In this document: piece by piece, positions 1,166-27,703 of the stretch
Layout: each line of letters begins with the position of its first letter
Numbering within the stretch: position 1 is the first letter of the stretch
Assembly: GCA_015232395.1 (NCBI GenBank)
Contig: JADFZT010000032.1
Coordinates: 1-49,823 of the forward strand
DNA: 49,823 nucleotides
From: Magnetococcales bacterium
GTDB lineage: Bacteria; Pseudomonadota; Magnetococcia; Magnetococcales; JADFZT01
Reading direction: 5' to 3'
Translations under genes and position numbers: made by a program
Notes under the pieces: generated by a model
What the model was told of the DNA's origin: nothing
Database searches by the model: none
What the model saw: only the letters and a program-made list of their open reading frames with translations

Positions 1166-1774
1166 TTGCCCTTCAAACCCCATCCATCAGCTGTTTCCAG
1201 GCGTAGAAAACCCGGGTACCGCCGCGCCTTCTGGCAGCTGTCGGTGGGGTTGCTCTGTCTGTTGGTGGCAGGAGAAGCTTTCCCCCGGGACGAGCGTCAG
1301 GTGGCTTATGCCGTCAAGGCAGCCCTCATCTTCAAGCTGGCCAAATTTATCGACTGGCCAAAAAACGTGGTTCAGAGTGAGACCCTCCATTTTTGCCTGG
1401 TCGGACCTGATCGTTTCGGCACCTCTCTTAAAACCTTGGTACGTAAGCCGGTTAAGGGGATGCAGGTGATCAATCTGGGGGGGCGGGGGGAGGAAACGGG
1501 TCTGGATGGTTGCCAGATTGTTTTTTTCAGTGACGATAATCCAGAGAAGCAGCAGACGTTGCTTTTACAATATGGTCGCCACCCCATGATGACCATCAGT
1601 GATCAGCCCGGTTTTTTGCAACGGGGGGGGATGCTCTATCTGGGCCGTAAAGGCAAAAAAATGGCCATCACCATTAATCGATCCGCCGTGCAAAGATCCG
1701 GCCTGCAAGTGAGTGCTCTGCTGTTTCAGTTGTCCCTGGTGGTGACGGATGATCTGCCGGGGAGAGACCGATGA
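1166..1774 (+). CDS. yfiR: YfiR family (DUF4154) periplasmic protein
   Basis: The 202-residue exported protein has a basic N-terminus and a hydrophobic segment (about residues 23-40), then the YfiR/DUF4154 pattern: [16 protein letters not shown], a LHFCLVGPD strand, GCQIVFFSD and the C-terminal block [17 protein letters not shown]. In Pseudomonas, YfiR is a periplasmic repressor of the CHASE8 diguanylate cyclase YfiN (TpbB). Here the next gene is a CHASE8-type histidine kinase, whose ATG overlaps this stop codon (ATGA). YfiR probably gates that kinase. The start is TTG at 1166 with AGAGG 9 bases upstream; no ATG fits the signal peptide better. The family call is strong. The partner is inferred from gene order. 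Confidence 0.85.
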
Positions 1775-4248
1775 GATGGGGGCGTAAGGGGATGTTTAAA
1801 AGCTATTCACAGCTCTCTTTGGCGGACAAACTGCGCGCTCTGGTGTTGATCACCACCACCAACGCATTGCTCTTTTCTTCCCTCATTCTGGTTTCAGTGG
1901 AAGTCTATTCTTTTGTGAAAGAGTCCCGGGAGCAAACGGCGGCACTCTCCCGGATTATCGGCCAGAATACCAGCGCCGCTTTGACCTTTGACGATGGGAC
2001 GTTGGCGATCTCGGTTTTGGATAGCCTGGATGCGGTCCCCGGCATTCTTTCAGCCCGACTCTTTAACGCCCAGGGGGAGATTTTTGCCGATTATCTGCGG
2101 CCCGGTTCCTCCAGAGCCCCACTCAACCAACCTTATCAAGGGTGGAAACCCCTGAAGGGAGAGAAGGGGCGGCAGGCCTACTATCGCTATCAACTGGACA
2201 GAATGTTTATCGAAAGTCCGGTGGTTTTTGATGGGGAGGTCATCGGCCATCTTTCCCTGAGTGCGGATTTGACCCCGCTCTTTAGCAATGTACTGATTTA
2301 TCTGGCCATCGTTTTTACCGTGGTGTTGATCACCCTGTGGCTGGCAGCTTTTCTTTCCCGCCGACAGCAAAATCGCATGATCGAACCCATCCTGGTTTTG
2401 TCCAAGGGGATGGCGGATGTCTCCACCCGAAAGGATTTTTCCATTCGGGTGGAGCACGATGCCCAGGATGAACTGGGGGGGTTGATTACCGGCTTTAACT
2501 TTATGCTGGAGACCATCAGCGAGCGTGATCAGGAACTGGAACGTTACCGCTCGGAGTTGGAACTCCAGGTGGACAAGCGCACCCGGGAGTTGACCAATCT
2601 CAACCTGGATCTCAAGGAGGCGGTCGCCCAGGCGCTACAGAGCAAGGAGCAGGCTGAAACGGCCAACCAGGCTAAAAGCGACTTTTTGGCCAAAGTGAGT
2701 CATGAGGTCCGCACCCCCATGAATGCCATCATCGGCATGGCTGAATTGATGATGACCCAACGGCAGGATTTGACGGAAAAGCATCAGCATTATGTGAAAA
2801 CCGTCCTGCGTTCCGGCCGGTTGCTGCTGATTATCATCAACGATATTTTGGACTTTTCCAAGATTGAAGCAGGCCGCTTGACCCTGGACCGGCAGGCCTT
2901 TGATCTCAAGCTGTTGCTGGCGGATCTGGCCGATCTGTTCCGGGAGCGCATCGAAAGTTTGGGGCTCCAGTTTGAATTGACCACCGACAACGCCCTTCCC
3001 AGCCACTATTGGGGCGATCCCAACCGTTTAAGCCAGATTTTGATCAATCTTTTGGGCAACGCCCTTAAATTTACCGAAGAGGGGTCCATTATTTTGCGGG
3101 TGGGGGTGATGCGTCCCAGCACCACCACCCCGATGATCCGTTTTGAGGTTCAGGATACCGGTATCGGCATCTCCGGGGAGGTCAAGGAGAGCATATTCGG
3201 CGCTTTCAGGCAGGCGGACGACTCCATCAATCGGCGCTTCGGCGGCACCGGGCTGGGCTTGGCCATCTGTAGCGGTCTGGTGGAGCAGATGCATGGTCGC
3301 ATCGGTGTTGAAAGCGAAGAGGGGGAAGGGGCGCGTTTTTGGTTTACCGTGCCCCTGGAACGCTCTACCCGGGAGCAACTCCCCCAGGAACGCCGGACCA
3401 CCCCCACCGCTTCTGCCGATGATCTGGAAGCGTTTGCCCAATACAGCGCCAAAGTGCTCCTGGTCGAAGACAACATGGTCAATCAGGAGGTGGCCAAGGG
3501 GACTTTTACCCTTTATGGCTGCCAGGTGGTGACCGCCAACGATGGTCGCCAAGGGTTGGAGGCCTTTGGCAAGGAGTCCTTCGATCTGGTTTTTATGGAT
3601 TGCGGCATGCCGGTGATGGATGGTTTTGAGGCAACGCGACAGATGCGCGCCTTGGAAGAGAAGAGCGGGCGCACGCGCACTCCCATCATCGCCCTCACCG
3701 CCCATGCGGTGCAGGGTACCCGGGAATCCTGCACCCGGGCGGGTATGGATGATTTTGTCACCAAGCCTTTCCATCTGGGTCAAATTCGTGCGGTATTGGA
3801 TCACTGGCTGCCCGACTCCACCCACAGGCCTCCCCTGCCTCCGGCATCCCTGGCCACCTCTGACCAAACCGGCCTCCCGGCGGCCTCTTCCCAAGAGAGC
3901 CCGGCCCCTGAGCTGGATTTGGAAATCATTCAGCGTTTGCGCGCCATGGGAGAGCGGACCGGCAGCGATATTCTCGGCAAGATGATCCAGCTGTTTATCG
4001 ATCAAGTGCCCAGCCAGATGGAAAAGATCCAGCTGGCCTCAGCGGAAAAAAATTGGGAAGTGGTTTGGACCACGGCCCACAGCTTGAAATCAGCCAGTGG
4101 GAATTTGGGGGCGGGGGGGCTGTCGGACCTTTTCCGCCAGTTGGAGCACGATGCCAAGGGGGAAAAAGAGGTGGAAAATCTCCTGCAACGCATCACCGAG
4201 CAGATCCCGGGGGTGGTGGCGGCGTTGAAAACGCAACGTGAGACCTGA
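1771..4248 (+). CDS. Hybrid histidine kinase: CHASE8-like, HAMP, HisKA, HATPase, REC, HPt
   Basis: This 825-residue inner-membrane kinase has TM1 (about 22-48), a periplasmic CHASE8-like sensor (50-165), TM2 (170-195), HAMP (196-250) and a coiled coil. HisKA follows with phospho-acceptor His311 in [11 protein letters not shown]. The ATPase has N and G boxes ([29 protein letters not shown]). The receiver contains [13 protein letters not shown] and Asp610 in [13 protein letters not shown]-terminal HPt carries His770 in [13 protein letters not shown]. All phosphorelay residues are present, so it should move phosphate from His to Asp to His and on to a separate receiver. The next two genes both start with receivers and are the natural partners. 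It is translationally coupled to the YfiR gene upstream. CHASE8 normally sits on YfiN-type cyclases; here it drives a kinase. Confidence 0.92.
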
Positions 4249-4268
4249 TTCATTCAGGCCGTTTTTTT
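4244..4268 (+). terminator. Short stem and T-run after the hybrid kinase
   Basis: CCTGA (4244-4248) pairs with TCAGG (4254-4258), and a run of eight T starts at 4262. The stem is only 5 bp, so at best it is a weak or partial terminator between the kinase and the c-di-GMP gene. Confidence 0.3.
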
Positions 4269-4322
4269 TAATATATGGATGTTTTTCCGACAGAACGAAT
4301 GGAATACCCAAAGGTTGGTCCC

Positions 4323-6800
4323 ATGACAAACAGACCCAAGCCCCTTTCAGGCTCCCGCATTTTGATTGTGGATGACGAGTTTGCCGAGCGACTCCCCATG
4401 CGCGCCACCCTGGAAGGGGAAGGATTTGAGATCGAGGAGGTTGAAAACGGGCAGCAGGCCTTGGATATACTGGAAAAAGAACATTTCGATGGCATTGTGC
4501 TCGATGTGGTGATGCCCGGCATGAACGGTTTTGAGGTGTGCCAACGGATCCGCCGGTTAGCTACGTGTCGCCTGCTGCCGATCCTCATGGTGACCGGTCT
4601 GGATGATCACGGCTCCATCAATCAAGCCTATCAGGCGGGGGCGACCGATTTTTTGACCAAGCCGGTCAACTGGGATCTGGTAGGGCATCGGGTACGCTAC
4701 CTCCTGCGTTCCAGCCGCGCCGCCCGGGAGTTGGACGATAGCCGGCGGGATCTGGAGGAAAAACAGAAACTGATCGACTCCTTTGTTGAAAATTCACCCT
4801 CTGCCATCAGCATCAAGGGGTTGGACAGGGTCTACCAGATGGTTAACCCGGAGTTCGAGCGCTCCTGTGTCAAGTCGGTTGCAAGTGTCCCGGGAAGTGT
4901 GGATGGGGAACTGTTCCACGCTGAGTATGCTGAAATAATTCAGAAAAATGACCAGACAGTCCTGGAAAAAGAGAGCCCCATGCGTTTTGAGGAGTTCTGC
5001 CGCAAGGGGGGCTGCGACAAAATTCAACTCTCGGTGCGCTTTCCCATCGTCGGCTCCAATGGCCAACCCACCGGCATCGGTTGCATCTCCACCGACATTA
5101 CCGAACTCAAAAGAGCCCGGGAAAGTTTGCTTTTGGCCAGAAATGTGATCGAAAGCACCCATGAAGCCATTGTCATTACCGATGAAAATGCCAATGTTCT
5201 GGATGTTAACAGCGCCTTTGTAACCATGCACGGCTACTCCCGGGAAGAGGTGCTGGGCAAAAATCCGAAAATGTTGCAGTCCGGTCGCCACGACGAGACC
5301 TTTTTTCAGGAGATGTGGCAGGGGCTGGCCAAGGAGGGCCTCTGGTCGGGGGAGGTGTGGGACCGGCGGAAAAACGGCGAGATTTTTCCCAAACAGCTGA
5401 CCATCTCTTCCGTGGCCAATCGCCAGGGTCAAATCCAATATTATGTCGGCATCTCCAGGGATATTACCCGACAAAAGGCCACCGAGGAAAAACTCCATCA
5501 GTTGGCTTTTTACGATCCACTGACCAACCTGCCCAACCGCACGCTGTTTCGGGATCGATTGATGCACGAAATCGACCTGGCCGCCCGGCGGGGAGATGAG
5601 TTTGCGGTGCTCTTCATCGATCTGGATCGTTTCAAAAACGTCAACGATTCCCTGGGCCATGAGGTGGGGGATGAGCTGTTGGTTCAGGTGGCCCAGCGTA
5701 TCCAGAGCTGTCTGCGCAAGAGTGATACTGTCGCGCGTATAGGCGGGGATGAATTTACGGTGATTCTGGCCACGGAAATGGGCTCCCACGGCTATGGCCA
5801 GGTGGCGGACAAGATTATTCAAAAGCTGCGTGAGCCTTTCATGTTGCGGGATCGGCAGTTTTTTATCGGTGCCAGTATCGGCATCGTGCTCTTTCCGGGG
5901 GATGCCGATAGCTTTGAGCTGCTCACCCGCCATGCCGACACCGCCATGTATCGCGCCAAGGCCTCCGGTGGGGGCAATTATCGCTATTTTTCGCCGGAGA
6001 TGGATGCAGAAAACATGTTTCGGCTCTCCCTGGAGGAGGAGTTGCACCAGGCTTTGGAAAAAAACCAGTTGGCGCTTCACTATCAACCCAAGATCGATCT
6101 TGCCTCCAATCGGGTGGCGGGGGTAGAGGCGCTGGTGCGTTGGCAGCATCCCGAGCGGGGCATGATCTCCCCCGCTGATTTTATTCCCCTGGCTGAAGAG
6201 ACCGGTTTGATCGTGCCTATGGGAATTTGGGTTCTCAAGACCGCCTGCCAACAAGCCAAGGCCTGGATCGACCAGGGATTTGAAAATATTCGGGTGGCGG
6301 TTAATCTATCCGGTCGCCAATTTCAGGACCCGGAACTGTTGGCCAAAATCCGTAATCTCCTGGAAATTCATCAGCTGCCTCCCGGAGCCATTGAGCTGGA
6401 AGTGACCGAGAGTGTGGCCATGGATGATGTGGAAAAAACCGTGGCCATTCTGGATGATTTTCGTAAGCTGGGGCTGCACATTTCAGTGGATGATTTTGGC
6501 ACCGGCTACTCTTCGTTGAGCTATCTGAAGCGGCTGCCTCTGGACAGCCTCAAGGTGGACCAATCCTTTGTTCGGGATTTGACCCGCAACTCCGACGATG
6601 CCGCCATTGTCGACTCCATCATCTCCCTGGCTCGGGCCATGGATCTCAAGGTGGTGGCCGAAGGGGTGGAAACAGCCCTGCAATTGGAATTTTTACGGGA
6701 AAAACTGTGCAGTGAGATCCAGGGGTTTTATTTTTCCCGTCCCCTGCCGGCACAGGATGTGAGTCTATTGTTTGATCAATTGTTCGATAGCGGGAGTTGA
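4323..6800 (+). CDS. Response regulator REC-PAS-PAS-GGDEF-EAL (c-di-GMP enzyme)
   Basis: A predicted soluble protein of 825 residues. It has a receiver (SRILIVDDE; phospho-Asp61 in LDVVMPGMNG), two PAS domains (about 140-255 and 265-385), GGDEF and EAL. GGDEF is canonical at 474-478 (ARIGGDEF), and RKSD five residues before it is an I-site for product inhibition. EAL is canonical (VEALVRWQHP, 602-604), with VNLSGRQF, EVTES, DDFGTGYSSL and EGVET also intact. Both c-di-GMP synthesis and hydrolysis are therefore chemically possible; phosphorylation and PAS ligands probably set the balance. The ATG at 4323 is preferred over an in-frame ATG at 4275, because AAGG lies upstream of 4323 and the extra 16 residues precede the receiver. 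It is a likely phosphorelay target of the preceding kinase. Confidence 0.93.
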   Translation: MTNRPKPLSGSRILIVDDEFAERLPMRATLEGEGFEIEEVENGQQALDILEKEHFDGIVLDVVMPGMNGFEVCQRIRRLATCRLLPILMVTGLDDHGSINQAYQAGATDFLTKPVNWDLVGHRVRYLLRSSRAARELDDSRRDLEEKQKLIDSFVENSPSAISIKGLDRVYQMVNPEFERSCVKSVASVPGSVDGELFHAEYAEIIQKNDQTVLEKESPMRFEEFCRKGGCDKIQLSVRFPIVGSNGQPTGIGCISTDITELKRARESLLLARNVIESTHEAIVITDENANVLDVNSAFVTMHGYSREEVLGKNPKMLQSGRHDETFFQEMWQGLAKEGLWSGEVWDRRKNGEIFPKQLTISSVANRQGQIQYYVGISRDITRQKATEEKLHQLAFYDPLTNLPNRTLFRDRLMHEIDLAARRGDEFAVLFIDLDRFKNVNDSLGHEVGDELLVQVAQRIQSCLRKSDTVARIGGDEFTVILATEMGSHGYGQVADKIIQKLREPFMLRDRQFFIGASIGIVLFPGDADSFELLTRHADTAMYRAKASGGGNYRYFSPEMDAENMFRLSLEEELHQALEKNQLALHYQPKIDLASNRVAGVEALVRWQHPERGMISPADFIPLAEETGLIVPMGIWVLKTACQQAKAWIDQGFENIRVAVNLSGRQFQDPELLAKIRNLLEIHQLPPGAIELEVTESVAMDDVEKTVAILDDFRKLGLHISVDDFGTGYSSLSYLKRLPLDSLKVDQSFVRDLTRNSDDAAIVDSIISLARAMDLKVVAEGVETALQLEFLREKLCSEIQGFYFSRPLPAQDVSLLFDQLFDSGS

Positions 6801-6917: not shown

Positions 6918-8405
6918 ATGGCGCAAGCCGAAAAGCCGCGTATTTTGATTGTCGATGACATGGTCATCAACATCAAAGTGCTGTCGGACCATTTGAAACC
7001 CCACTATCAGGTTCAGGTAGCCACCAACGGCCCCAAAGCCCTGGAGATTGCGGCGGAGGAGCCCCGGCCCGACATGATCCTCCTGGATATCATGATGCCT
7101 CAGATGGATGGCTATACTGTTTTGACCCGTTTGCAGGCCGATCCCGGTACTCGAGACATTCCAGTGATTTTTTTGACCGCCAAGGATGCCGAGGAGGATG
7201 AAACCCGGGGGTTGGCCATGGGGGCGGTGGATTATATCACCAAGCCCTTCTCTCCCCCCATCGTCAAAGCCCGAATCAAAACCCACCTCTCTTTGCAGCA
7301 GAGCATCCGGGAGATGATGCGGGCCCAGCTGAAAGCCCAATCCCTGCAAAAGCAGGTGGGGGCGCTCAACAGCAACCTGGTGAAGGAAGCGCTGAAAAAC
7401 CCGGAGGCTTTTGCTGAAATCGTCACCATCAGTCCCCAGATGCGGACCATTTTTCACTACATGGAGGCGATTTGCGATTCCGGGGAGCCGGTGTTGGTGA
7501 CGGGGGAGACCGGAGCAGGCAAGGAGTTGATCGCCCGGGGGTTGCACCGTCTGGGAGGAAGAGCTGGCAAGCTGGTCTCGGTGAATCTGGCTGGCCTTGA
7601 TGACGAAACCTTTTCCGATACCCTGTTCGGCCACACCAAGGGGGCCTTTACCGGGGCCAATCAGGATCGCAAGGGGTTTATCAGCCAGGCCGAGGGGGGA
7701 ACGCTTTTTCTGGATGAAATCGGCGATCTGCTACCCGCCTCCCAAATCAAGCTGTTGCGACTTTTGCAGGAAAAACTCTACTACCCGTTGGGGGCGGATA
7801 CCCCCAGCCGAATGGACGTGCAGATCATTGCCGCCACCCACCGGGATCTTCAGGCCCGGATGAATGAAGGCCATTTTCGTCAGGATCTCTTTTTTCGACT
7901 TTCAGCGCATCATATTCGCATACCGGCTCTGCGGGATCGTCGGGAGGATATTCCACCTCTCACCTTTCATTTTTTGGAGGAGGCGGGCAAAGCCATGGAT
8001 CGTCCCCCTCTGGACCCCCCACCGGAGCTGCTCCAGCTGTTGGAGACCTACCATTTTCCCGGCAATGTGCGGGAGTTGCGCGCCATCGTTTTTGATGCCG
8101 TGGCCCAGCATCGAACGGGGGCGATCCTCTCCATGAAAAGCATCCAAAAAACCATCGAGGAGCGCCGCTCTGGTCACCATGGCGCCACTCGGTCGATCTT
8201 GAGCAGCACGCCCGATCACTCCTCTTTCCAGATTGAAGGCTCTCTACCCACCCTGGAGGAGGCTGAAAATGTGTTGGTGAGCGAAGCGATGCGCCAAGCC
8301 AAAAACAATCAGGGGATTGCCGCCTCCCTCCTGGGGATCTCCCGTTCCGCTTTGAACCGCCGTTTGAATCGTCGTCTGAGGCATCTGCTCGATACCCAAG
8401 AGTGA
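6918..8405 (+). CDS. NtrC-family sigma54-dependent response regulator
   Basis: The protein has 495 residues: receiver (7-120, phospho-Asp57 in ILLDIMMPQMDG), AAA+ domain (about 170-395) and a C-terminal Fis-type helix-turn-helix (IAASLLGISRSALNRRL). Walker A is GETGAGKE at 196-203. The sigma54-contact loop GAFTGA at 242-247 is intact, as are FLDEIGDL (Walker B) and the FPGNVRELR block. It should activate RNA polymerase-sigma54 when phosphorylated. AGGGGAAAG lies before the ATG. It closes the signalling block and directly precedes the surface-protein cluster, so that cluster is a plausible target. The upstream hybrid kinase with its HPt domain is the likely phosphodonor. Confidence 0.93.
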   Translation: MAQAEKPRILIVDDMVINIKVLSDHLKPHYQVQVATNGPKALEIAAEEPRPDMILLDIMMPQMDGYTVLTRLQADPGTRDIPVIFLTAKDAEEDETRGLAMGAVDYITKPFSPPIVKARIKTHLSLQQSIREMMRAQLKAQSLQKQVGALNSNLVKEALKNPEAFAEIVTISPQMRTIFHYMEAICDSGEPVLVTGETGAGKELIARGLHRLGGRAGKLVSVNLAGLDDETFSDTLFGHTKGAFTGANQDRKGFISQAEGGTLFLDEIGDLLPASQIKLLRLLQEKLYYPLGADTPSRMDVQIIAATHRDLQARMNEGHFRQDLFFRLSAHHIRIPALRDRREDIPPLTFHFLEEAGKAMDRPPLDPPPELLQLLETYHFPGNVRELRAIVFDAVAQHRTGAILSMKSIQKTIEERRSGHHGATRSILSSTPDHSSFQIEGSLPTLEEAENVLVSEAMRQAKNNQGIAASLLGISRSALNRRLNRRLRHLLDTQE

Positions 8406-9124
8406 CCCGAATCCTCTCTTCCCCCACCCGCCCCTTGAGGCTTCTGTTCGACACCCACAATCCAATCCAGTCCCTTCGGGAGCGCTCCCTTTCAGGGGGG
8501 TGCACCAAAGTGAACCTGTGCACACGCTGTGGTTGACCTGAATGATTGTCGTAACTTGATGAAAATCAAATCTATTTGATCATCTGTCCCTATTTCTGGC
8601 AGGCCCCCCCTGTGCAAAATGGTCTACCCATTTCCGGGGTCGGAATCACTTCTTTGGTGAAGGATATCTGGCTGTTTTGTAAGGTTATCTTCAGGTTTGT
8701 GTGGGTTTGGTCCGGTTCTTGTTCTGTAAGGGGCAGGGGAAGAGAGCCCATCCGGGGTGTTCCAAGCCTGGATCCGGGTAACCTCTGGCACTTGGAAAGT
8801 GGGTCTATCTCGATGGTGGGTAAGGAGACGATGCTCAGGCAGGCCTGTTTTTACATTTTAAGAGTGTTTTTGTTGCATGGATAAAATATGGCAGAGAAAA
8901 CAAAAAACGTGATACCGTGGAGAATTAGGCGTTAAATGCCACATTTCGCTCATAGGTTCCTTCCAGGTCAATTTGCCAAGCCGGTTTGAGTGCGGTTTGA
9001 GAGGCTTGCTTCACTTCTGCTGAAGGGCAATCGATCTGATCTTTTCAGTTTCAGGTTTGCCCAAGCAGGGGTTCCACTGGATGGTACAGCTGGATACAAA
9101 AATAACGGTACGAAGGGGAGGATC
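8406..9124. other. 719-bp non-coding region before the surface-protein cluster
   Basis: No convincing gene is present. A 12-bp perfect palindrome GGGAGCGCTCCC lies at 8478-8489, shortly after the sigma54-activator stop. I searched by eye for -24/-12 (GG-N10-GC) sites. Near matches such as TGGCAGG...TGTGC (8597 onward) have wrong spacing, so no sigma54 promoter is called. The promoter for the gene at 9125 should lie here. Confidence 0.45.
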
Positions 9125-12100
9125 ATGAATCAAGTTGGCAGGAAGAGTAGCAAAGGTTGGATCCCGAAGGGCGTTTTGGGGCTGTTGGCGGGCTTTTCCC
9201 TGATCGCCAGCGCCCAGGCCGAAACCTTCGACGATGTGTCGAGTGATCGCTGGGGGTATGAATATATTGAAACCCTGGCTGAAAATGCCATCACCAGCGG
9301 CTGTGACAGCTCCAACTATTGCCCGGACAGTGATCTGCAACGGGCGGAGATGGCGATTTTTCTGCTGCGGGCGCAATATGGCTCGGACTATTCTCCTGAT
9401 ACTGCCACCGGCAGTGAATTTGACGATGTCTCTTCAAGTTTTTGGGCGGCCAGCTATGTGGAGCGGCTGGCGGAACTGGGTATCACCGCTGGTTGTGACG
9501 ACAGCAACTTTTGCCCCAGCCGGGACATCACCCGCTCGGAGATGGCGATCTTTCTGCTGCGCACCAAATATGGCTCGGATTATTCCCCCCCCACAGCCAC
9601 CGGGACTGTTTTTGGGGATATCTCTTCGGACTATTGGGCGGCTTCATTTATCGAGCAGCTGGAGACCGAAGGGTGGGCGGACGACACCCTGGATACCACC
9701 CGGGAGTGCGACGACGGTGATTTTTGCCCCAGCCTCACCATCAACCGCGCTGAAATGGCGGTTTTTTTGGTTCGGGTCTTTGAGCTGACCGGCAGCAGTG
9801 ATACCGGCTCCGGCTCCGATGTTGAATTCAGCGCCTCCCCCACTTCCGCCGCCATGGCTGCGGATGGCACCTCCCAGCAGGCGTTTGTCCTCTCCGGTGG
9901 TGACGAGGACCGCACCTACACCTTCACAGTTGCCAATTCCGGCGGTGGTTTTGCTTCCACCGACAACAGCACCGACACCATCACCTATACCGCCGGTTCC
10001 AGCAGCCAGACCAGCGACATTCTCACCGTCACCTGGATCGATGATCAGAATGCCACCGGCACCGTTTCCATTCCCATCTATCTGGGTGAGGAGGCGGGAG
10101 CGGGCAGTGGCAACTCCGTGATCTATGTCGATGACTCCGCCACCGGCAACAACAGCGGTGTCGCCTGGGCCCACGCTTTTACCGACCTCTCCGATGCCTT
10201 GGACAGCGCCTCATCCGGTGATCAAATCTGGGTGGCAGCGGGTACTTATACCCCGTCCAGCATTCCTTCCACCGTTCCGGATGAGGGGACGGGCAGTCGT
10301 TACTACGCCTTTGAGATGAAGGAGGGGGTTTCCATTTATGGTGGTTTTGCTGGCAGCGAAATTTCCCGGGAGGCCCGGGATTGGGAGGCCAATGAGACCA
10401 TTTTGAGTGGGGATCTGGGTACCCTGGATGACACCAGCGACAATGCCCATCATGTGGTTTACGGTGCCACGGATGCCCTGCTTGATGGCTTCATCATTGA
10501 GGATGGCTACGCGATCCTGGAGGATGGCGAAGTGAGTGTGGGCGGCCCGGAAGAGATTTTCGGGCTCAGTTCCGATGAGTATACCCTGCTGCGCATCCTG
10601 AATGGGGTCTGGAGCGTCGCCGGTGGCGGCATGCTCAACATCCAGGTGGATCCCACGGTCCGCAACGCCACCTTCCGCAACAACACCGCTCAGAAGGGCG
10701 GGGCAGCCTACAACATGGTGCGGGATGTCTATCCCGACACACCTGGTGATGACCTTCAAGCACCGCGTTTTGAAAACGTCCTCTGGGAGGATAACTATGG
10801 CACAACCCGGGGTGGCGCCATCAACAACGACTTCAACACCGACAGCGTTCATGTCAACAACATTTTCCGTGGCAACGAATGTCCGGCCAAGGGTGGGGCG
10901 ATCTACTCGGATGCAGGCAACCAACCCGAGATCGTCAACTCCCTCTTCTACGACAACGACTCTGAGCGGGGGGGCGGGATTGTCAACGACGGCACCACCT
11001 CCAGCAAGATGATCTACGTCACCATCGCCGAAAACAATTCCGACGATATCGGTGCCGCTCTCTATCAGGGAACCTATTCCGCCGGGGGATCCACCAACGA
11101 TCCCCAAGCGGTGGAGAGCTTGATTCTCGGCAACACCACCGGCTCCTCGCCATCCTCCATCAGCAACTGGCACGATGATGCGGTGATCAACACCGACTCC
11201 ATCATCGAAGAGACCGATGGCACCTACACCCTGACCGAGGTGTTTAACGATCCGGACAACGACGATTATGAGCCCATCGGCGACTATGCCGACAAGGGAT
11301 GGAGCTTTACCCGGGTGGTGGATGGGGCTTTCGATACGCTGGATAACTTGACCAGCCGCGAATCCTCTGTCGATGCCGGTAACGATGCTTTTGACTCCTT
11401 ATATCCCACCTTTGCGCCGGAGGCTGGGCCGAATGATTCAGCGGTGCTCCATGTAGACGCGGGTGTCTCTGCCAGTGGCGATGGCTCCAGTTGGGATTCT
11501 GCCTACCAGGGGCTGGATGAAGCGTTGGAAAATGCCCGGGAAGGTCAGGAGATCTGGGTGGCTGAGGGAACCTATAAACCCACCAGCGACAGCGACCGTT
11601 CCGCCGCATTTGTGATGTTGGAGGATATCAACGTCTATGGTGGTTTCTGCGGCACCGAGAGCAGCACCGATGAGCGGGGCGACAGCTGTCCGTCCGTGCT
11701 CTCCGGTGATATCGGCACCGAGGATGACAGCAGCGACAACTCCTACCATGTGGTGGTGGCTGCTCCTTCGGGTACATTGGATGGTTTCACCATTGAGGAG
11801 GGTAAAGCTGACGGTGACTATTGGCACGCCAGAGGGGCCGGGATGTTGGTCTATTTTGGCAGCTCGCCCACCTTGAACGACATCACCTTCCAGAACAACG
11901 AAGCCATCGAAGGGGCCGGGCTCGCCGCTTATGACGATGCCATGCCGACTTTGACCGACGTTGTTTTTATCGACAACACCGCTGAACGGGCGGGTGGGGC
12001 GCTCCTTCGGGATGGTTCAAATGCGACGCTTACCAACGTTACCTTCACCGATAACACCGCCACCGACCGGGGTGGGGCGCTCTATATCGACTATGGCGCA

Positions 12101-12535
12101 AGTCCCACGGTGACCTCCTCCACCTTCACCGGCAATGTCAGTACGGGCAATGGCGGCGCAGTCTATATCGACGACAACGCCTCCCAGGTGGGGAGCACTT
12201 CCCCTTCCTTTGATAGTTGCACCTTCAGCAACAACGTCACCTCCATCCGGGGCGGAGCCATGGCGGTTTATAACGAAGTGACCGAAGTGACCCTTGTCGA
12301 CTCCACCTTCACCGGCAACCAAGCGGTCTCCGGCGGTGGCGCGATCTCCATGGACTATTCCGCGACGCTCTACTACGAAAACAACACCTTCACCTCCAAC
12401 ACCTCTACGACAGGTGAGGCGGATGTGGATGTGAGTGATGATTCCACCTACGCCGAATCCGGTTCTGAAGGGACCGGTGATGGGCCTCCGGATGGCGAAG
12501 GGCCTCCGGATGGTGAGCCGCCCACCAAATCATAA
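9125..12535 (+). CDS. Exported SLH plus tandem Pmp-like beta-helix surface protein
   Basis: The protein has 1136 residues. A signal peptide ends near ASAQA/ET (residue 32). Three S-layer-homology repeats follow (about 33-215), each with a Cys pair (TSGCDSSNYCP, TAGCDDSNFCP, RECDDGDFCP). Next come a beta-rich, Ig-like linker (225-325) and two parallel beta-helix modules starting near 331 (VIYVDDSATG) and 773 (VLHVDAGVSA). The helix modules contain recurring short motifs of the polymorphic outer-membrane protein type (TFRNNTA, GGAIY, FTDNTATDRGGAL). The C-terminal tail is acidic and Gly/Pro rich. The ATG at 9125 has GGGGAGG just upstream; an open extension back to 8990 lacks such a signal and would bury the signal peptide. 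It is probably surface-anchored and adhesive or structural. No catalytic residues are recognised. The closest relatives are the genes that follow. Confidence 0.85.
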   Translation: MNQVGRKSSKGWIPKGVLGLLAGFSLIASAQAETFDDVSSDRWGYEYIETLAENAITSGCDSSNYCPDSDLQRAEMAIFLLRAQYGSDYSPDTATGSEFDDVSSSFWAASYVERLAELGITAGCDDSNFCPSRDITRSEMAIFLLRTKYGSDYSPPTATGTVFGDISSDYWAASFIEQLETEGWADDTLDTTRECDDGDFCPSLTINRAEMAVFLVRVFELTGSSDTGSGSDVEFSASPTSAAMAADGTSQQAFVLSGGDEDRTYTFTVANSGGGFASTDNSTDTITYTAGSSSQTSDILTVTWIDDQNATGTVSIPIYLGEEAGAGSGNSVIYVDDSATGNNSGVAWAHAFTDLSDALDSASSGDQIWVAAGTYTPSSIPSTVPDEGTGSRYYAFEMKEGVSIYGGFAGSEISREARDWEANETILSGDLGTLDDTSDNAHHVVYGATDALLDGFIIEDGYAILEDGEVSVGGPEEIFGLSSDEYTLLRILNGVWSVAGGGMLNIQVDPTVRNATFRNNTAQKGGAAYNMVRDVYPDTPGDDLQAPRFENVLWEDNYGTTRGGAINNDFNTDSVHVNNIFRGNECPAKGGAIYSDAGNQPEIVNSLFYDNDSERGGGIVNDGTTSSKMIYVTIAENNSDDIGAALYQGTYSAGGSTNDPQAVESLILGNTTGSSPSSISNWHDDAVINTDSIIEETDGTYTLTEVFNDPDNDDYEPIGDYADKGWSFTRVVDGAFDTLDNLTSRESSVDAGNDAFDSLYPTFAPEAGPNDSAVLHVDAGVSASGDGSSWDSAYQGLDEALENAREGQEIWVAEGTYKPTSDSDRSAAFVMLEDINVYGGFCGTESSTDERGDSCPSVLSGDIGTEDDSSDNSYHVVVAAPSGTLDGFTIEEGKADGDYWHARGAGMLVYFGSSPTLNDITFQNNEAIEGAGLAAYDDAMPTLTDVVFIDNTAERAGGALLRDGSNATLTNVTFTDNTATDRGGALYIDYGASPTVTSSTFTGNVSTGNGGAVYIDDNASQVGSTSPSFDSCTFSNNVTSIRGGAMAVYNEVTEVTLVDSTFTGNQAVSGGGAISMDYSATLYYENNTFTSNTSTTGEADVDVSDDSTYAESGSEGTGDGPPDGEGPPDGEPPTKS

Positions 12536-12544
12536 ACCCCTCCT

Positions 12545-12587
12545 GGTTGGCTGCGTTGGTTGGATCGGCGCAGCCAGCCAGTTTTTT
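12545..12587 (+). terminator. Rho-independent terminator after the first SLH/beta-helix gene
   Basis: GGTTGGCTGCG (12545-12555) pairs with CGCAGCCAGCC (12569-12579), with 10 of 11 canonical pairs and one G-U. AG and six T follow. It sits just after the stop at 12535, so the next gene probably has its own promoter. Confidence 0.8.
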
Positions 12588-12738
12588 CCCTTGATCGTGA
12601 GTTCCTGGTCATACCGGCCTTTCTGCTAAGCTGAAGAGTATGATCAAAGGCTTTTCAACGATCATCTTGCACACCTGAAATTTTAATTCACTTCAAAATC
12701 AAGGTTTTCCAGAAAAATTGGGTATAGGAGACATGGCG

Positions 12739-14508
12739 ATGAAGATCAGGATCAACAACACCTTTACAGCGTTTCTTCTGGCGGGTGCACTGGTCAGCCT
12801 GGCCAGCGCCAGTGAAACCCACGCGGCACAATATGTCGCTGTCGATACCGGCCAAACCGACTGCTACAGCATGCAGGGGGAAGTGATCACCTGTCGTGCT
12901 GAAGGTGAAATGCTTTATGGTCAAGATGCCCAATACGATACCAATGCCCCCAGCTTTACGCTGACGGATGATGAACTCGTCACCGACAACAATACCGGGC
13001 TCATGTGGCAGAAGGCCCACAACGAAACCAGACTCAACTATGACGCTGCTACCACCGCCTGTAGCGAGTTGGTGTTGGGGGGCTACAGCGATTGGCGGCT
13101 GCCCAACATCAAGGAGTTGATGACCATCGTCGATTTTTCCGGTACGGTTTCTGATAATGATGCGACTGAGCCGGATGATCCCTATGTTTTTGAGGACTAT
13201 TTCGACATCGGTTATGACGAAACCCTGGCGCTGGATGGTACCCACGTCACCCAGATGATGGGGCAAACCTGGTCTTCTACAGCCAGGCCGGACCTCTCCA
13301 CCTATAACTATTTTTACAATTTTCTGGATGGCCACCTGAAGAGCGACTCCAATTCCGATGAACTCGCCACCATGTTCTACCGCTGCGTGCGGGGGGATGA
13401 GATCGGCACGACTGGAGATTATACCGATAACGGCGACGCCACCATCACCGACAACAACACCGGAATGATGTGGCAGGAGTCCAATGGTGAGGAGTCGGAT
13501 GGGGATTATCAGTTTACCTGGGCCAATGCCCTGGATTATTGCGAGAATCTGGAGCTGGCCGGGCACACCGATTGGCGACTGCCCAACGTCAAAACCCTGC
13601 ACACCATCGTCGATTATACCAACGCTGATGAAGCCATCGACACCGACACTTTTATCCATAATGTGGATACCCAGAACACCGGTCCCTTTTTCTGGTCCAG
13701 CACCAACGATGAATATTTTGTCGACTATGCCAACTATATCTGCTTCGGGCCGTGTTGGAACTACACCTTTACCATGGATGTCCACGGTCCCGGGGCGCAA
13801 CGTTCCGAATATCGGCGGGATAACGGCAATCTGCCTGAATCCATGGGCGATCAGGAAGATTTGATCCAGGCCGACAACTATGTCCGCTGTGTCCGGGACG
13901 CCTCAGGGGATGATGCTGGCACCAGCAGTGGGGAAGAGACCTTCGCCGACGTATCAAGTGATCGTTGGGGGTATGAATATATCGAGATACTCGCCGCCAA
14001 CAGCATCACCAGCGGTTGTGACGCGGAAAACTATTGCCCGGAGAATGAACTCCAACGCTCGGAAATGGCTATTTTCCTGCTGCGCTCCAAAAATGGCTCC
14101 AGCTATGTGCCGTCATCGGCTACGGGGACGGTGTTTGACGATGTCTCCGCTGATTATTGGGCTGGAAATTTTGTCGAGGATCTGGCCGATCAGGGGATCA
14201 CCAGCGGCTGTGACGACAGCAACTTTTGTCCAAGCCGGGAGATCACCCGCTCGGAAATGGCGATCTTTCTTCTCCGGACCAAATATGGCTCCGACTATAC
14301 ACCCTCCACGGCGACAGGGACGGTTTATGGCGATATCTCCTCCGACTATTGGGCGGCTTCGTTCATCGAGCAGCTCTATAATGAAGGTTTCGCCACCGAC
14401 ACGCTGGATACCACCCGGGAGTGCGACGAAGGCAACTTTTGCCCCAGCCTCGCCATCAACCGGGCGGAGATGGCCGTCTTTTTGGTAAAGACCTTCGGGC
14501 TTGAATAA
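12739..14508 (+). CDS. Exported protein with two DUF1566 (Lcl C-terminal) domains and C-terminal SLH repeats
   Basis: The protein has 590 residues and a signal peptide (FLLAGALVSLASASETHAA). Two DUF1566-type domains follow, recognised by the paired signatures VTDNNTGLMWQK...GYSDWRLPNIKEL and ITDNNTGMMWQE...GHTDWRLPNVKTL. Three SLH repeats with Cys pairs (about 400-588) close the protein. They match the SLH block of the neighbours, but at the opposite end of the polypeptide. DUF1566 occurs in secreted, often adhesin-associated proteins; its activity is not established. AGGAG at 12726-12730 lies 8 bases before the ATG at 12739. An ATG at 12733 is too close, so 12739 is preferred. The domain swap suggests that the SLH cassette is a mobile surface-anchoring module within this cluster. 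Confidence 0.85.
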   Translation: MKIRINNTFTAFLLAGALVSLASASETHAAQYVAVDTGQTDCYSMQGEVITCRAEGEMLYGQDAQYDTNAPSFTLTDDELVTDNNTGLMWQKAHNETRLNYDAATTACSELVLGGYSDWRLPNIKELMTIVDFSGTVSDNDATEPDDPYVFEDYFDIGYDETLALDGTHVTQMMGQTWSSTARPDLSTYNYFYNFLDGHLKSDSNSDELATMFYRCVRGDEIGTTGDYTDNGDATITDNNTGMMWQESNGEESDGDYQFTWANALDYCENLELAGHTDWRLPNVKTLHTIVDYTNADEAIDTDTFIHNVDTQNTGPFFWSSTNDEYFVDYANYICFGPCWNYTFTMDVHGPGAQRSEYRRDNGNLPESMGDQEDLIQADNYVRCVRDASGDDAGTSSGEETFADVSSDRWGYEYIEILAANSITSGCDAENYCPENELQRSEMAIFLLRSKNGSSYVPSSATGTVFDDVSADYWAGNFVEDLADQGITSGCDDSNFCPSREITRSEMAIFLLRTKYGSDYTPSTATGTVYGDISSDYWAASFIEQLYNEGFATDTLDTTRECDEGNFCPSLAINRAEMAVFLVKTFGLE

Positions 14509-14640
14509 AGGGATTTTAGGGGAAAGAGGGGCTGGGGCAGCCATGACAAAACCGTTTGGTCGAAATGAGATGGATCGTCATTCAAATTTACTTCTTATGA
14601 TCTGGATGTCAGAGATCAAAATAAGAAAAGGGGAAATATC

Positions 14641-16452
14641 ATGAATCGAAAGAGTCATCGGCGCCTCACCGGGGGGATTGCCAAGGGTATTTTAGGGTTG
14701 GCCGCTGGTTTTTCCTTGATGGCCAGCGCCCAGGCGCAAACTTTCACGGATGTCGCCACCGACCGCTGGGGCTATGAATATATCGAGGTTTTGGCTGAAG
14801 CCGCGGTGACCAGCGGTTGCGGTACGGATCTTTATTGTCCGGACAGCGATCTGCAACGGGCGGAGATGGCGATCTTTCTTCTGCGCTCCCTCTATGGTTC
14901 CGACCACGCCCCGGATACCGCCTCCGGTACTGAATTTGACGATGTGTCCAGCAGCTTTTGGGCAGCCAGCTTTGTGGAGGAGTTGAGCGAACTGGGGATT
15001 ACCAGCGGTTGCGACGCCAGCAACTTTTGCCCCAGCCGGGATATCACCCGCTCGGAGATGGCGATCTTTCTGTTGCGCACCAAATATGGCTCGGACTATT
15101 CCCCTCCCAGCGCAACTGGAACGGTGTTTGGCGATATCTCCTCCGACTATTGGGCGGGGGCTTTTATCGAACAGCTGGATACCGAAGGGTGGGCGGATGA
15201 CACTCTGGACACCACCCGGGAGTGTGACGACGGCAATTTTTGTCCCAGCCTGTCGGTCAACCGGGCGGAGATGGCGGTTTTTCTGGTGCGGGTCTTTGAG
15301 TTGGGAGAGGTCTCCGGCGATACCAGCGGCTCTTCCGATCCTCTGGCTGACGGCATCATCGCCGTGGATGAAGATGCTTCGGGATCTGGTGACGGCTCTT
15401 CCTGGGCCGACGCTTACACCTCTCTCTCTGATGCCATCGATGCTGCCAGCAGCGGGGATGAAATCTGGATTGCAGATGGCACCTACTATCCCACCGATGG
15501 CAGCGACCGCAGCGTTTCGTTCAACATGAAGGAGGGGGTCGATATCTACGGGGGGTTCGACGGGGCCGAGTCGAGTCGGGATGAGCAGGACGCTGCCACC
15601 AACATCACCATCCTGAGTGGGGATATCGGTACTTCGGGGGATAGCAGCGACAACAGCTATCACGTGCTGGTGGCTGCGGATGATGCGATCCTGGATGGCG
15701 TTACCGTCTCCGGTGGCAACGCCGATGCTTCGGTCACCGAAGGGGATAGCGACACCAACAGCTGGGAGCCCCTCAACGGCATGGGCGGCGGGATGTACAT
15801 GGAGGATTCCATCTCACCCACCCTGAACAACGTCATCTTCACCGACAATACCGCTCTCGAAGGGGGCGCGATCTACGCCTATGACTATGCCCAGCCCCTG
15901 ATCAGCAACTGCACCTTCAGCGACAACACCGCCGAGCGGGGTGGGGCGATCTTAAGCCGCAAGGGCTCCAATATTTATGTGGAGAACTCGGCCTTCAGTG
16001 GCAACGCCGCTGAATATCGCGGCGGGGCGATCCACCTGGACTACGGTACTGCCACCGATGAGGATGACTATTATCAGTGGGATCTCACCATCACCGGCTC
16101 CAGCTTTAGCGGCAACACCACCAACGGCAACGGCGGGGCGATCTATGCGGACAACACCTCCACCCAGCTGAATGAAACCATGGTCAACATTTCCAGTTCG
16201 ACCTTCACCAGCAACACCGCACAATATTTGGGTGGGGCCATTTCCATCTTCAACAGTGCCCGGATCTCCGCCTCTGACAATACCTTCACCACCAATACGG
16301 CGGAACTGGGGGGTGGGGCGGTTTCTCTGGATTACAATGTGACCAATGCCACTCTGAGCAGCAACACCTACACGAGCAACACCGCCACTTCGGGAGAGGG
16401 CAGCATCGATACCCGCAACGACTCCTCTTATTCCGGGAGCGATGGGATTTGA
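14641..16452 (+). CDS. Exported SLH plus Pmp-like beta-helix surface protein
   Basis: The protein has 603 residues: signal peptide (ILGLAAGFSLMASAQA/QT), three Cys-paired SLH repeats (about 36-220), then a single beta-helix module from about residue 238. The module keeps the marker strings GDEIWIADGTYYP, EGVDIYGGFDGAESS and ILSGDIGTSGDSSDNSYHVL, followed by repeating FTDNTA/GGAIY turns. The SLH part is close to that of the gene at 9125 in both protein and DNA, for example the shared segment encoding EMAIFLLRTKYGSDYSPP. That points to recent duplication or gene conversion. AAAAGGGG precedes the ATG. It is likely exported and surface-anchored. I see no enzymatic motif. Confidence 0.86.
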   Translation: MNRKSHRRLTGGIAKGILGLAAGFSLMASAQAQTFTDVATDRWGYEYIEVLAEAAVTSGCGTDLYCPDSDLQRAEMAIFLLRSLYGSDHAPDTASGTEFDDVSSSFWAASFVEELSELGITSGCDASNFCPSRDITRSEMAIFLLRTKYGSDYSPPSATGTVFGDISSDYWAGAFIEQLDTEGWADDTLDTTRECDDGNFCPSLSVNRAEMAVFLVRVFELGEVSGDTSGSSDPLADGIIAVDEDASGSGDGSSWADAYTSLSDAIDAASSGDEIWIADGTYYPTDGSDRSVSFNMKEGVDIYGGFDGAESSRDEQDAATNITILSGDIGTSGDSSDNSYHVLVAADDAILDGVTVSGGNADASVTEGDSDTNSWEPLNGMGGGMYMEDSISPTLNNVIFTDNTALEGGAIYAYDYAQPLISNCTFSDNTAERGGAILSRKGSNIYVENSAFSGNAAEYRGGAIHLDYGTATDEDDYYQWDLTITGSSFSGNTTNGNGGAIYADNTSTQLNETMVNISSSTFTSNTAQYLGGAISIFNSARISASDNTFTTNTAELGGGAVSLDYNVTNATLSSNTYTSNTATSGEGSIDTRNDSSYSGSDGI

Positions 16453-16570
16453 GGCGATCCAGCTAACGGCAAGGGGGGGCGCAATCAGGTTTTACCCCTC
16501 TTTGGCAATCCAAGGATCGAACCCGGCATTGGCCCTGTACGACAAGATCTATTCAGAGGAGATAGCTCCG

Positions 16571-17911
16571 ATGATCAAGGCAAAATCAAACCACCTTGGG
16601 TGGTTTAAATGTAGTGTGTGGTTGGGGGTGGCGCTTTTTTCCGGCGCAGCCCAGGCCAGCGTGATTTATGTGGATACGGATAACAACTCCGGCACCGAGA
16701 CCGGCACCTCCTGGTCCACCGCCTATACCGAGCTTTCCACGGCTCTCGCCAGCGCTGTCAATGGCGATGAGATTTGGGTGGCCCAGGGAACCTACTATCC
16801 TTCCCAGGATGACGACCGTTCCGATACCTTCCAGATGATCGAGGGGGTCGATATTTATGGCGGCTTCCAGGGCAGCGAAGCGTCGGTGGATGAGCGGGAT
16901 TGGGAAACCTACGAGACCATTCTTTCCGGTGCGATTGGGGAAAGCCGTCAGGCTGACAACTCCTATCACATCTTGAAAGGCGCCAACGACGCCACCATCG
17001 ATGGCTTTTTCGTCGAGTATGCCAACGCCCGGGGCGAGAGTTCTTCCAAAACCACCACCAGCACCACCCAGGCGACCACCGCCAGCACCGTGCTTGAAAG
17101 CGAGGGGCTGACCTATGGCGGGGGCATGCTCAACTTTCAGACTGCGCCCACCGTTAAAAACATGGTGTTCCGCTACAACTGGTCCATGAAGGGGGGGGCT
17201 GTCTATAACATGGCGGCGACCTCCATCCAGTCGGGGGACTATACCGCTCCCAGTTTTTATAACGTCACTTTCCAGGAAAACTATGCCGTCAGCCGGGGGG
17301 GAGGGGTGGCCAACGATCTCTACACCCACCCCTATATGGAGCGGGTCACCTTTATCGACAACTATACCGACGCCAAGGGCGGGGGCATGTATAACGACTG
17401 GGCCTGCTCTCCCACCCTGGTCAACTGCCTCTTTTCCGGTAACGATGCTTTTCGAGCCGGAGCCATGGGCAATGATGGCACCTCGTCACCGGTGATGATC
17501 AACTGCACCATCGCCGACAATACCGCCTATGAGATGGGAGCCGGGCTCTACCAGGGCTCCTTCAACCAGAACGTCAACGCGCCGGTCCTCATCAACTCCA
17601 TTATCTGGAACAACACCCTGGATATCGCCGGTTACGGCAACATCAGCAACTGGCACACCAATGAACCCTTGCTGGTCAACTCCATCGTTGAAAATGGCTA
17701 TTGGGGCGTGGATATGGTGGCCAGTGATGATTCCGGATTCAGCGACTCGGACAACGACGACTATTCCCTGTCGAGCGCCACCTCTCCGGCAGTGGATGGG
17801 GGGGTCTCCAGCTACACCTATGATGGCACCACCTATACCGCCCCCACCGAAGACAGGGATGGCAATCCCCGGGACAGTGTCATTGATATTGGCGCTTACG
17901 AATATCAATAG
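16571..17911 (+). CDS. Exported Pmp-like beta-helix protein without SLH
   Basis: The protein has 446 residues with a signal peptide (CSVWLGVALFSGAAQA/S). The helix module starts directly after cleavage (VIYVDTDNNSG) and keeps GDEIWVAQGTYYP, EGVDIYGGFQGSEAS and ETILSGAIG. It ends RDSVIDIGAYEYQ, the usual end of the right-handed beta-helix, choice-of-anchor type family. Unlike its neighbours it has no SLH block, so it is released or held by another partner. The ATG at 16571 with AGAGGAG upstream is preferred over an in-frame extension to 16442 that overlaps the previous gene and lacks signal-peptide character. It lies 20 bases before the next gene and probably shares its transcript. Confidence 0.83.
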   Translation: MIKAKSNHLGWFKCSVWLGVALFSGAAQASVIYVDTDNNSGTETGTSWSTAYTELSTALASAVNGDEIWVAQGTYYPSQDDDRSDTFQMIEGVDIYGGFQGSEASVDERDWETYETILSGAIGESRQADNSYHILKGANDATIDGFFVEYANARGESSSKTTTSTTQATTASTVLESEGLTYGGGMLNFQTAPTVKNMVFRYNWSMKGGAVYNMAATSIQSGDYTAPSFYNVTFQENYAVSRGGGVANDLYTHPYMERVTFIDNYTDAKGGGMYNDWACSPTLVNCLFSGNDAFRAGAMGNDGTSSPVMINCTIADNTAYEMGAGLYQGSFNQNVNAPVLINSIIWNNTLDIAGYGNISNWHTNEPLLVNSIVENGYWGVDMVASDDSGFSDSDNDDYSLSSATSPAVDGGVSSYTYDGTTYTAPTEDRDGNPRDSVIDIGAYEYQ

Positions 17912-27400: not shown

Positions 27401-27703
27401 GTTATCCAGAGGGTGGGTCAGGATGGGGGAGGAGGGCCAGTGGAGATCAAAGGGTTTGGCGCCTTTTTGTTTCCAGGTATAGATGGTCAGCATGGGCCGA
27501 TCAGCGCCGGTGGCGGCGACATCGGCAGCGGTATCATTCAGCTTTTTTGGCGGCTTGGCACCCTCTTTCAGACCTAAAAAGGCGGCAAAATGTTCAGCCG
27601 CCACCTTGCCGTGGCCCCCCTTGGTCTTGAGAAAAAACAGCTTGTCCGGGGAGTCGTGGAAATATTGCTGGAGCTTGCGTTGCCAAAATTCAGCTTCGGT
27701 CAT
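24446..27703 (-). CDS. cmr2: Type III-B CRISPR Cas10 (Cmr2), HD and cyclase motifs present
   Basis: The 1085-residue large subunit has an N-terminal HD-like motif (His16-Asp17 in YFHDSPDKL) and a zinc-binding pair CTLCGK...CGVCSVKRF. The palm motif FAVIRMDGDSMGKLL follows, then cyclase GGDD at 786-789 (IYAGGDDLLCLA). An intact GGDD predicts synthesis of cyclic oligoadenylate from ATP upon target RNA binding. HD could give DNase activity, although many Cmr2 HD domains are weak. The ATG at 27703 overlaps the cmr1 stop (ATGA); a TTG at 27709 is the alternative. No CARF-domain effector that would read cyclic oligoadenylate is seen in this window. Confidence 0.95.
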   Translation of the reverse strand: MTEAEFWQRKLQQYFHDSPDKLFFLKTKGGHGKVAAEHFAAFLGLKEGAKPPKKLNDTAADVAATGADRPMLTIYTWKQKGAKPFDLHWPSSPILTHPLDNAPIDFGSQKIQSKNQAAKERKATREALWKDADEAAKCIASPTPEWDQSISAKTAFFQVWRNYRDKIVSRSDSDNRNNIVAQSDRDKIHASMWRHMPADSRDPDHTIWDHLKVTSALSFMKRKDSSEARTPWMLRFAIGPVGEYLEEARSSRDLWVGSFLISDLAWHAMKPFVEKYGPDAIVYPDLNGNPRADFGLQEIIPETLPEGAQTASFASLLPNAFVVLVPRGDQESEHLERLEKLAEKSREQVEARWQALANLVENWLLSVKGEGNWQQIWKRQLKTMPLHTTWVAVPWLPLDQTREERLKPWLADEVWNQYEKNREVFDQTNSTLLHSERGFDYALTHHQLRMRHQLRNQSPPYTLGEAEPGEKCTLCGKREALRNETEGTMDGQRALTRKFWTHPLLDPDQSGSERLCGVCSVKRFIVEAGVTHENKLIGLNPLWAGSKVTLGDLGESSKPRVPFPPAPAVAAQVYMEKIVGEPNLEILLAGVCQAYLDTRLPLTTFPRALPRLAMALENATDNGRHYLKMDTQLVVFPDALRGLRDSLARRKVDEETRKNQPSLTSLDKLEQAVRKLQNAAAKQNIRPPATRFAVIRMDGDSMGKLLLGEEGKIGACWQDIIHPEAVKKVHGHPQMEKAGWKELLGEQRLMGPSLHAFISRALAEFANRIVPWVVEREFSGRLIYAGGDDLLCLAPVADALPLTARLQQLFSAPWVIDTDPDIELWEWRKQGSKEPHDPKKNRQRFQIPKMPQNCSDEENIPAIRLPVTEVDLLEEHVVGRESVLNPDMPVDGLLIPMLGRHQSLSAGIAIGHYKTPLSTLLVQSKSLLNDLAKDKSGRKSIALGHNSRNGVKTEFALKWHREGEERPNAHHIMGDVSKGFGDGQIPNRLPYKLRGYSSQIDALFQRVRDENRGEMPKVGEKEWQNHCRPLLLGLLKLALDGKKPQALDQILTLWERGLALHDEKVDKGVDGLLLCRLLSREREET

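Follow-up and report, generated by a model that had tools for sequence, protein, structure and literature searches.

Passages of three published studies (PMC4655355, PMC3375315, PMC3838380) treat YfiR in experiments as the repressor of a cyclase and present kinase partners in silico only. Malone et al. (2012, PMC3375315) reported divergent operons in which GGDEF-EAL pairs, HPT domains or sensor histidine kinases take the place of the YfiN GGDEF domain, and named a hybrid kinase in Thauera among the YfiN variants found in silico; part of the discussion of that paper proposes an ancient modular YfiR-YfiN[PAS/HAMP] core. NCBIfam also includes a model named for YfiR-associated kinases (NF053592), and a YfiR wired to a kinase is an already known kind of arrangement, not a new one. 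Here we analyzed a 49,823-nucleotide contig of a Magnetococcales bacterium (JADFZT010000032.1; "the window" denotes this whole stretch), in which yfiR, a gene for a CHASE8-HAMP-kinase-REC-HPt protein (REC, receiver; HPt, histidine phosphotransfer) and a gene for a REC-PAS-PAS-GGDEF-EAL protein (open reading frame 3, ORF3) are consecutive within positions 1166-6800 (Table 1). On the sequences, this locus probably belongs to the modular YfiR/CHASE8 family, in a version whose kinase output would relay to the GGDEF-EAL enzyme. What appears to be new is the return of the relay to cyclic di-GMP (c-di-GMP) via a dedicated regulator, with one-chain versions elsewhere, and a nucleotide-cyclase alternative suggested for another family of the order; among the titles and abstract openings found in the open-licence PMC literature, none announces a relay that runs from a YfiR-linked kinase and ends at a c-di-GMP regulator.

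The gene content and order, as well as the ATGA shared by the end of yfiR and the start of the kinase gene (1771-1774), had been proposed in an initial annotation and were borne out by coordinates and Pfam domains. The YfiR protein carries a hydrophobic amino-terminal segment at residues 21-39, as expected for an exported protein, and its profile matched the YfiR chains of the PDB with an E-value of 5.9e-9. Its only cysteines are found at positions 31, 77 and 116, the latter two aligning with the columns of the Cys71-Cys110 pair of Pseudomonas aeruginosa YfiR, which is reported in part of PMC4655355 to open under reducing conditions. The kinase sensor, flanked by two hydrophobic segments, was assigned to CHASE8 by the same kind of profile search through which the annotation had proposed to challenge that label (Pfam E 9.1e-15; 55.2 bits against a cut-off of 27). 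The phosphorelay motifs of the kinase are SHEVRTP (H-box) at 310, the receiver FMDCG at 608 and the HPt AHSLKS at 769, and those of ORF3, all intact, comprise the receiver VLDVVMP at 75, RxxD and GGDEF at 481-494, EALVRW at 618 and DDFGTG at 739.

With YfiBNR of P. aeruginosa the locus shares the YfiR homologue, an adjoining CHASE8 (periplasmic PAS-like)-HAMP receptor, the docking motif described below and c-di-GMP as the likely output. It differs in that the receptor ends in kinase-REC-HPt and not in the GGDEF domain that a YfiN would have, and in that the c-di-GMP enzyme, which includes an EAL domain, is encoded apart from the receptor as a response regulator. Furthermore, no YfiB gene was seen nearby in the proteins scanned, as none of the six larger proteins scanned between positions 1 and 12535 contains an OmpA-type (YfiB-like) domain, with smaller frames unscanned and the left flank ending with the contig. 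The YfiR/YfiN kinase variants of Malone et al. (2012, PMC3375315; NF053591/NF053592) likewise have yfiR directly beside a CHASE8-HAMP (hybrid) kinase. In contrast to these, the window has a dedicated REC-GGDEF-EAL regulator behind the kinase, and its NCBIfam matches lie below the curated cut-offs (HK_near_YfiR_like, NF053592: 158 bits against 194 for the kinase; NF053591: 73 against 125 for YfiR).

The proposed YfiR-binding site on YfiN is given in part of PMC3375315 as the motif AAVVF, with Phe70 at its center. Its counterpart in the window kinase is AALTF at residues 69-73, the predicted docking site, and the column of its phenylalanine is F in 99 of 100 CHASE8-kinases and in 55 of 55 CHASE8-cyclases paired with YfiR. 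On the side of YfiR, the hydrophobic positions 160, 162 and 183 are occupied by M, I and L. For 79 thinned kinase pairs, YfiR distances correlated with those of CHASE8 (r 0.48; partial r 0.45) more than with those of the kinase core of the same protein (r 0.22; partial r 0.10), indicating that YfiR and CHASE8 co-vary and that the output half is exchanged. Based on the docking motif and this co-variation, YfiR most likely acts on the window kinase.

An AlphaFold2 model of kinase residues 1-260 (mean predicted local distance difference test score, pLDDT, 90.4) consists of one periplasmic PAS/Cache-type domain between long helices. A fold search with this model yielded the periplasmic PAS/Cache sensors WalK (Z 12.4) and CitA (Z 11.9) as well as a LapD relative (4u64, Z 11.1), the periplasmic domain of YfiN being absent among the best 50 matches listed; a PDB sequence search with the sensor gave no match. 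As these matches are generic PAS/Cache sensors, the search backs the fold and not the CHASE8/YfiN family. WalK offers a functional analogy: in Gram-positive bacteria the PAS-type sensor of this kinase is held in check outside the membrane by the accessory proteins YycH and YycI, which are membrane-anchored and unrelated to YfiR.

A survey of this gene order elsewhere, as the annotation had suggested, covered 48 Magnetococcales genomes, the genome of the window counted (loci and genomes of the survey are cited by L and G numbers). In the protein searches, scoring covered the top 20 candidates of each genome, and domain calls derive from hidden Markov models built from few seeds, unless Pfam is named. 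The three-gene order recurs in one other genome, G038, belonging to another family of the order, where locus L052 has co-linear homologues of yfiR, the kinase gene and the GGDEF-EAL gene, which speaks against a chance arrangement. The identities to the window amount to 41% for YfiR, about 53-55% for the kinase (residues 9-819) and 67% for ORF3 (26-832); instead of overlapping, yfiR and the kinase gene are separated by 3 bases there. Among the matches listed, near-full-length matches to the window kinase above 50% were confined to these two genomes, as were REC-to-EAL matches to ORF3 above 50%, and in both genomes the homologues of kinase and ORF3 are adjacent, behind yfiR.

The same succession of domains is also found within single polypeptides. 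In L197 (Sedimenticola sp. BM503) and L239 (a gammaproteobacterial metagenome-assembled genome, MAG) one Pfam-confirmed protein, CHASE8-HAMP-HisKA-HATPase-REC-REC-HPt-REC-GGDEF-EAL, is encoded behind TonB-receptor and yfiR genes, and in L238 a domain chain of this type is divided between two genes. The one-chain proteins hold input, relay and c-di-GMP domains in the order of the window and differ from it by the single polypeptide, the extra REC and the TonB-dependent receptor gene upstream. On the CHASE8 tree, L197 and L239 belong to the rows closest to the window, and on the YfiR tree they stand beside it, in both cases on weakly supported branches.

Among 324 receivers in the survey loci, that of ORF3 was, after its L052 homologue, closest to the receivers adjoining the nearest kinase cores. 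Six of the regulators with these receivers were checked by Pfam and are REC-HD_5 proteins. At loci such as L289, L285 and L278, regulators of this type and Magnetococcales HPt hybrid kinases are encoded by adjacent genes, with the closest receivers and, apart from L052, the closest kinase cores; no YfiR or CHASE8 was found at these loci, however, and HD replaces GGDEF-EAL. We take the HD_5 domain of their regulators to be HD-GYP, of the c-di-GMP type. Across 65 adjacent kinase/regulator pairs, kinase-core likeness and receiver likeness correlated with a Spearman coefficient of 0.86 for ORF3, versus 0.35 for ORF4, the sigma54 activator encoded downstream, and across 30 HPt-kinase pairs the values were 0.77 and -0.53. 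Furthermore, a c-di-GMP receiver enzyme was fused or at most two genes away for 10 of 41 HPt YfiR-kinases versus 2 of 69 without HPt (Fisher p 0.0008, kinship and contig ends ignored; the split kinase gene of L119 is counted twice in the 69, and with 68 p is 0.0009). The loci of six duplicate rows were removed from these 110 YfiR-kinase genes and from the pair counts.

Phosphotransfer to the REC-GGDEF-EAL enzyme is thus likely on these comparisons, and the part of the annotation that led the signal from YfiR through a kinase to c-di-GMP holds up as a reading of the locus, favored by the docking motif, the co-variation, the L052 cassette, the one-chain versions and the kinase-receiver likeness. 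For the docking, the sign of control, the phosphotransfer and the direction of the c-di-GMP change, we infer the following course. Exported YfiR would dock via AALTF on the membrane-distal CHASE8 domain and keep the kinase off, as with YfiN; the kinase would be freed once YfiR is lost or unfolded in response to an envelope or redox cue. Phosphate would then pass from the kinase histidine (H-box, 310) to the receiver aspartate (608), the HPt histidine (769) and finally the receiver of ORF3, whose phosphorylation would alter the GGDEF-EAL half and hence c-di-GMP. We lean slightly towards net breakdown of c-di-GMP, because the two domains appear intact and the NCBIfam models that score best on ORF3 are phosphodiesterases, every one below its cut-off.

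Several observations weigh against this course. Phe162, central in P. aeruginosa YfiR, is replaced by isoleucine in the window protein, and the counterpart of the second cysteine pair, Cys145-Cys152, described as necessary for folding in part of PMC4655355, is missing from it. Most of the pair signal comes from the control loci, themselves selected for kinase likeness, as the 47 pairs outside them gave about equal coefficients for ORF3 (0.76) and ORF4 (0.77); one control pair, L296, misfits, its next gene encoding a REC-SpoIIE protein with a receiver nearer to that of ORF4. When YfiR-kinases were compared with control HPt kinases under a slightly different neighbor rule, c-di-GMP neighbors numbered 10 of 45, four duplicate rows included, versus 2 of 34 (p 0.06, not significant). 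The controls comprise 20 chosen places among the listed kinase matches and other survey-locus kinases, not a random set, and one of their two c-di-GMP cases (L076) lies itself in a YfiR locus; the excess over control HPt kinases is suggestive only. In addition, a weak terminator-like hairpin separates the kinase and GGDEF-EAL genes (fold z -1.3 and -1.6), with 12 terminator-like hits found versus a shuffle mean of 9.9 (sd 3.4), so that hairpins are not clearly above chance.

The hairpin and the different next gene of most HPt YfiR-kinases in the order, where a REC-nucleotide cyclase gene follows 8 of the 19 and the GGDEF-EAL partner is a minority form, would also suit an alternative in which the kinase answers YfiR but has its true regulator elsewhere, the GGDEF-EAL gene being a chance neighbor or served by another kinase. 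Such a distant partner is conceivable in a kinase-rich order, where the genome of the window alone gave more than 300 first-look candidates for the kinase query. We nevertheless consider this alternative unlikely, given that the cassette is kept in a second family, that one-chain versions exist and that the receiver likeness points to ORF3.

The annotation had further proposed that the signal also reaches the sigma54 activator ORF4, which would give the relay a transcriptional arm. ORF4 is indeed adjacent and on the same strand, with intact receiver and GAFTGA motifs; a YfiR-kinase gene is followed by a REC-sigma54 gene in L248 (a Geobacteraceae MAG), and in G038 another kinase precedes a 50-52% relative that is found ~5 kb downstream of the cassette. 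However, 117 bases separate ORF4 from the GGDEF-EAL gene, and its homologues at 67-69% identity, six loci in five other genomes among the matches listed, have no YfiR nearby in the 10-15 kb stretches examined, where other kinases and regulators adjoin them. Two of these five genomes (G041, G045) carry the homologue and have no YfiR match, and in G038 the closest homologue, again among the matches listed, is on a different contig from the cassette. The ORF4 receiver is moreover of a different type, resembling other regulators and not those adjoining the nearest kinases. With its homologues apart from YfiR in the stretches examined and its receiver of another type, we regard a transcriptional arm as very unlikely; the sigma54 gene is probably not a relay target, and it was rejected as a member of the cassette because none of its six close homologues had a yfiR in those stretches.

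To place the pairing of YfiR with a kinase among its other partners, we compared three samples: the order, the phylum and named records. The genome of the window has three YfiR genes, each followed by a CHASE8 kinase gene. In the order, YfiR occurs in 19 of 48 genomes with 29 copies, and a kinase follows 28 of these: 23 with CHASE8, 4 without a CHASE8 call, and L033, where a short overlapping frame had led to filing under "CHASE8 only" and inspection revealed the kinase. The remaining copy sits at a contig end, and none of the 29 is directly followed by a cyclase. In the phylum sample, 83 of 397 genomes contain YfiR, and the 91 listed copies outside the order divide into 35 with a CHASE8-kinase, 33 with CHASE8-GGDEF, 6 fused YfiR-coil-transmembrane (TM)-kinase proteins, 2 with a kinase without CHASE8 call, 2 with CHASE8 only and 13 others. 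The scan of named records, a biased sample obtained with one peptide pattern, gave 47 kinases, 23 GGDEF proteins, 3 CHASE8 only and 7 others in the best 80 of 203 confirmed loci, the kinase-type loci being titled Terriglobia, Nitrospirae, Deltaproteobacteria, Myxococcota and Elusimicrobiota, among others. In all three samples YfiR is paired more often with a kinase than with a cyclase, and in the genomes surveyed kinases are at least as common as cyclases as its partners.

These counts bear on the claim of the annotation that the Yfi input was split, which would mean that an ancestral YfiR-YfiN pair was divided and a kinase inserted between YfiR and the cyclase. The trees do show switches of partner type, 13 for YfiR (192 rows) and 11 for CHASE8 (155 rows). 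Well-supported branches of the YfiR tree require at least 6 changes of the cyclase label and 11 of the kinase label, each counted against all other rows, 27 unlabelled ones included; those of the CHASE8 tree force only 2. Both trees are, however, unrooted and weakly resolved, the YfiR tree having 72 of 189 inner branches open and a long-branch warning, and thus do not give the direction of partner change. The YfiR tree omits six duplicate rows (five named Magnetococcales loci equal to order loci in YfiR, and L216, equal to L209) and the short rows L161 and L165. Since YfiR-kinase pairs are widespread, were reported already in 2012 and outnumber cyclase pairs in all three samples, and the proposal in PMC3375315 is that of an ancient core joined to varied outputs, we consider such a rewiring improbable. 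The succession "YfiN first, kinase later" was dropped as unproven, the trees being without direction.

Two further features accompany YfiR in the survey. Six loci (L141, L155, L160, L162, L163, L164) encode a single chain of YfiR, a long coil-like stretch, TM and a histidine kinase, with no CHASE8 match; they form one supported clade on the YfiR tree, and Pfam was checked for L155. In 54 of 120 loci (18 of 29 in the order, 36 of 91 elsewhere; e.g. L004:6114-8105), yfiR is immediately preceded by a gene for a TonB-dependent receptor, a label checked with Pfam on two proteins, which suggests an outer-membrane input. Such a gene was not seen at the window yfiR, where the left flank ends with the contig.

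The REC-nucleotide cyclases of the order, all in one family, are encoded by the next gene in six cases (L032, L035, L036, L038, L042, L045) and by the next but one, past another kinase, in two (L039, L041). The class III cyclase domain PF00211 was confirmed on five of the eight (L032, L036, L042, L039, L041), suggesting that the last gene is exchangeable and that other second messengers can replace c-di-GMP; in that family, cyclic AMP (cAMP) or cyclic GMP (cGMP) may be the output in its place. Tentatively, YfiR and CHASE8 could thus represent a portable periplasmic control head, the kinase versions of which drive interchangeable second-messenger regulators (c-di-GMP or cAMP/cGMP). If so, one kind of envelope cue would be turned into different second messengers by exchanging the last gene. 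A comparison of the one-chain, three-gene and nucleotide-cyclase versions would directly test how a single periplasmic head is fitted to its different outputs, and also which messenger, c-di-GMP or another, conveys the envelope signal in magnetotactic bacteria.

Table 1 Features of the yfiR locus and of the adjoining sigma54 gene, in window coordinates.
Feature	Position	Strand	Basis and remarks
yfiR-like gene (DUF4154)	1166..1774	+	PF13689 E 8e-34, above cut-off; TTG start
Hybrid histidine kinase, TM-CHASE8-TM-HAMP-HisKA-HATPase_c-REC-HPt	1771..4248	+	Pfam, motifs, hydrophobic segments
AALTF codons of the kinase	1975..1989	+	Counterpart of the YfiN AAVVF motif; predicted docking site
Weak terminator-like hairpin (4244-4258) with T-run	4244..4271	+	Between kinase and GGDEF-EAL genes
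Response regulator REC-PAS-PAS-GGDEF-EAL (ORF3)	4275..6800	+	Pfam, motifs
NtrC-type REC-sigma54 activator-HTH_8 (ORF4)	6918..8405	+	Pfam, GAFTGA, intact receiver motif; judged a separate unit

Elsewhere in the window, a DDE transposase gene (PF13701; 1-759, reverse strand) runs off the contig start and lies 406 bases ahead of yfiR. The forward strand at 8990-17911 encodes a series of large proteins of surface type, in which SLH domains occur with Chlam_PMP repeats, among them an Lcl_C protein. On the reverse strand follow a gene for a Cas10/Cmr2-like protein (Cmr2_N, palm2; 24446-27709), near which a type III CRISPR locus is likely, and one for a Protoglobin-GGDEF protein, a globin-coupled diguanylate cyclase (38791-39987).

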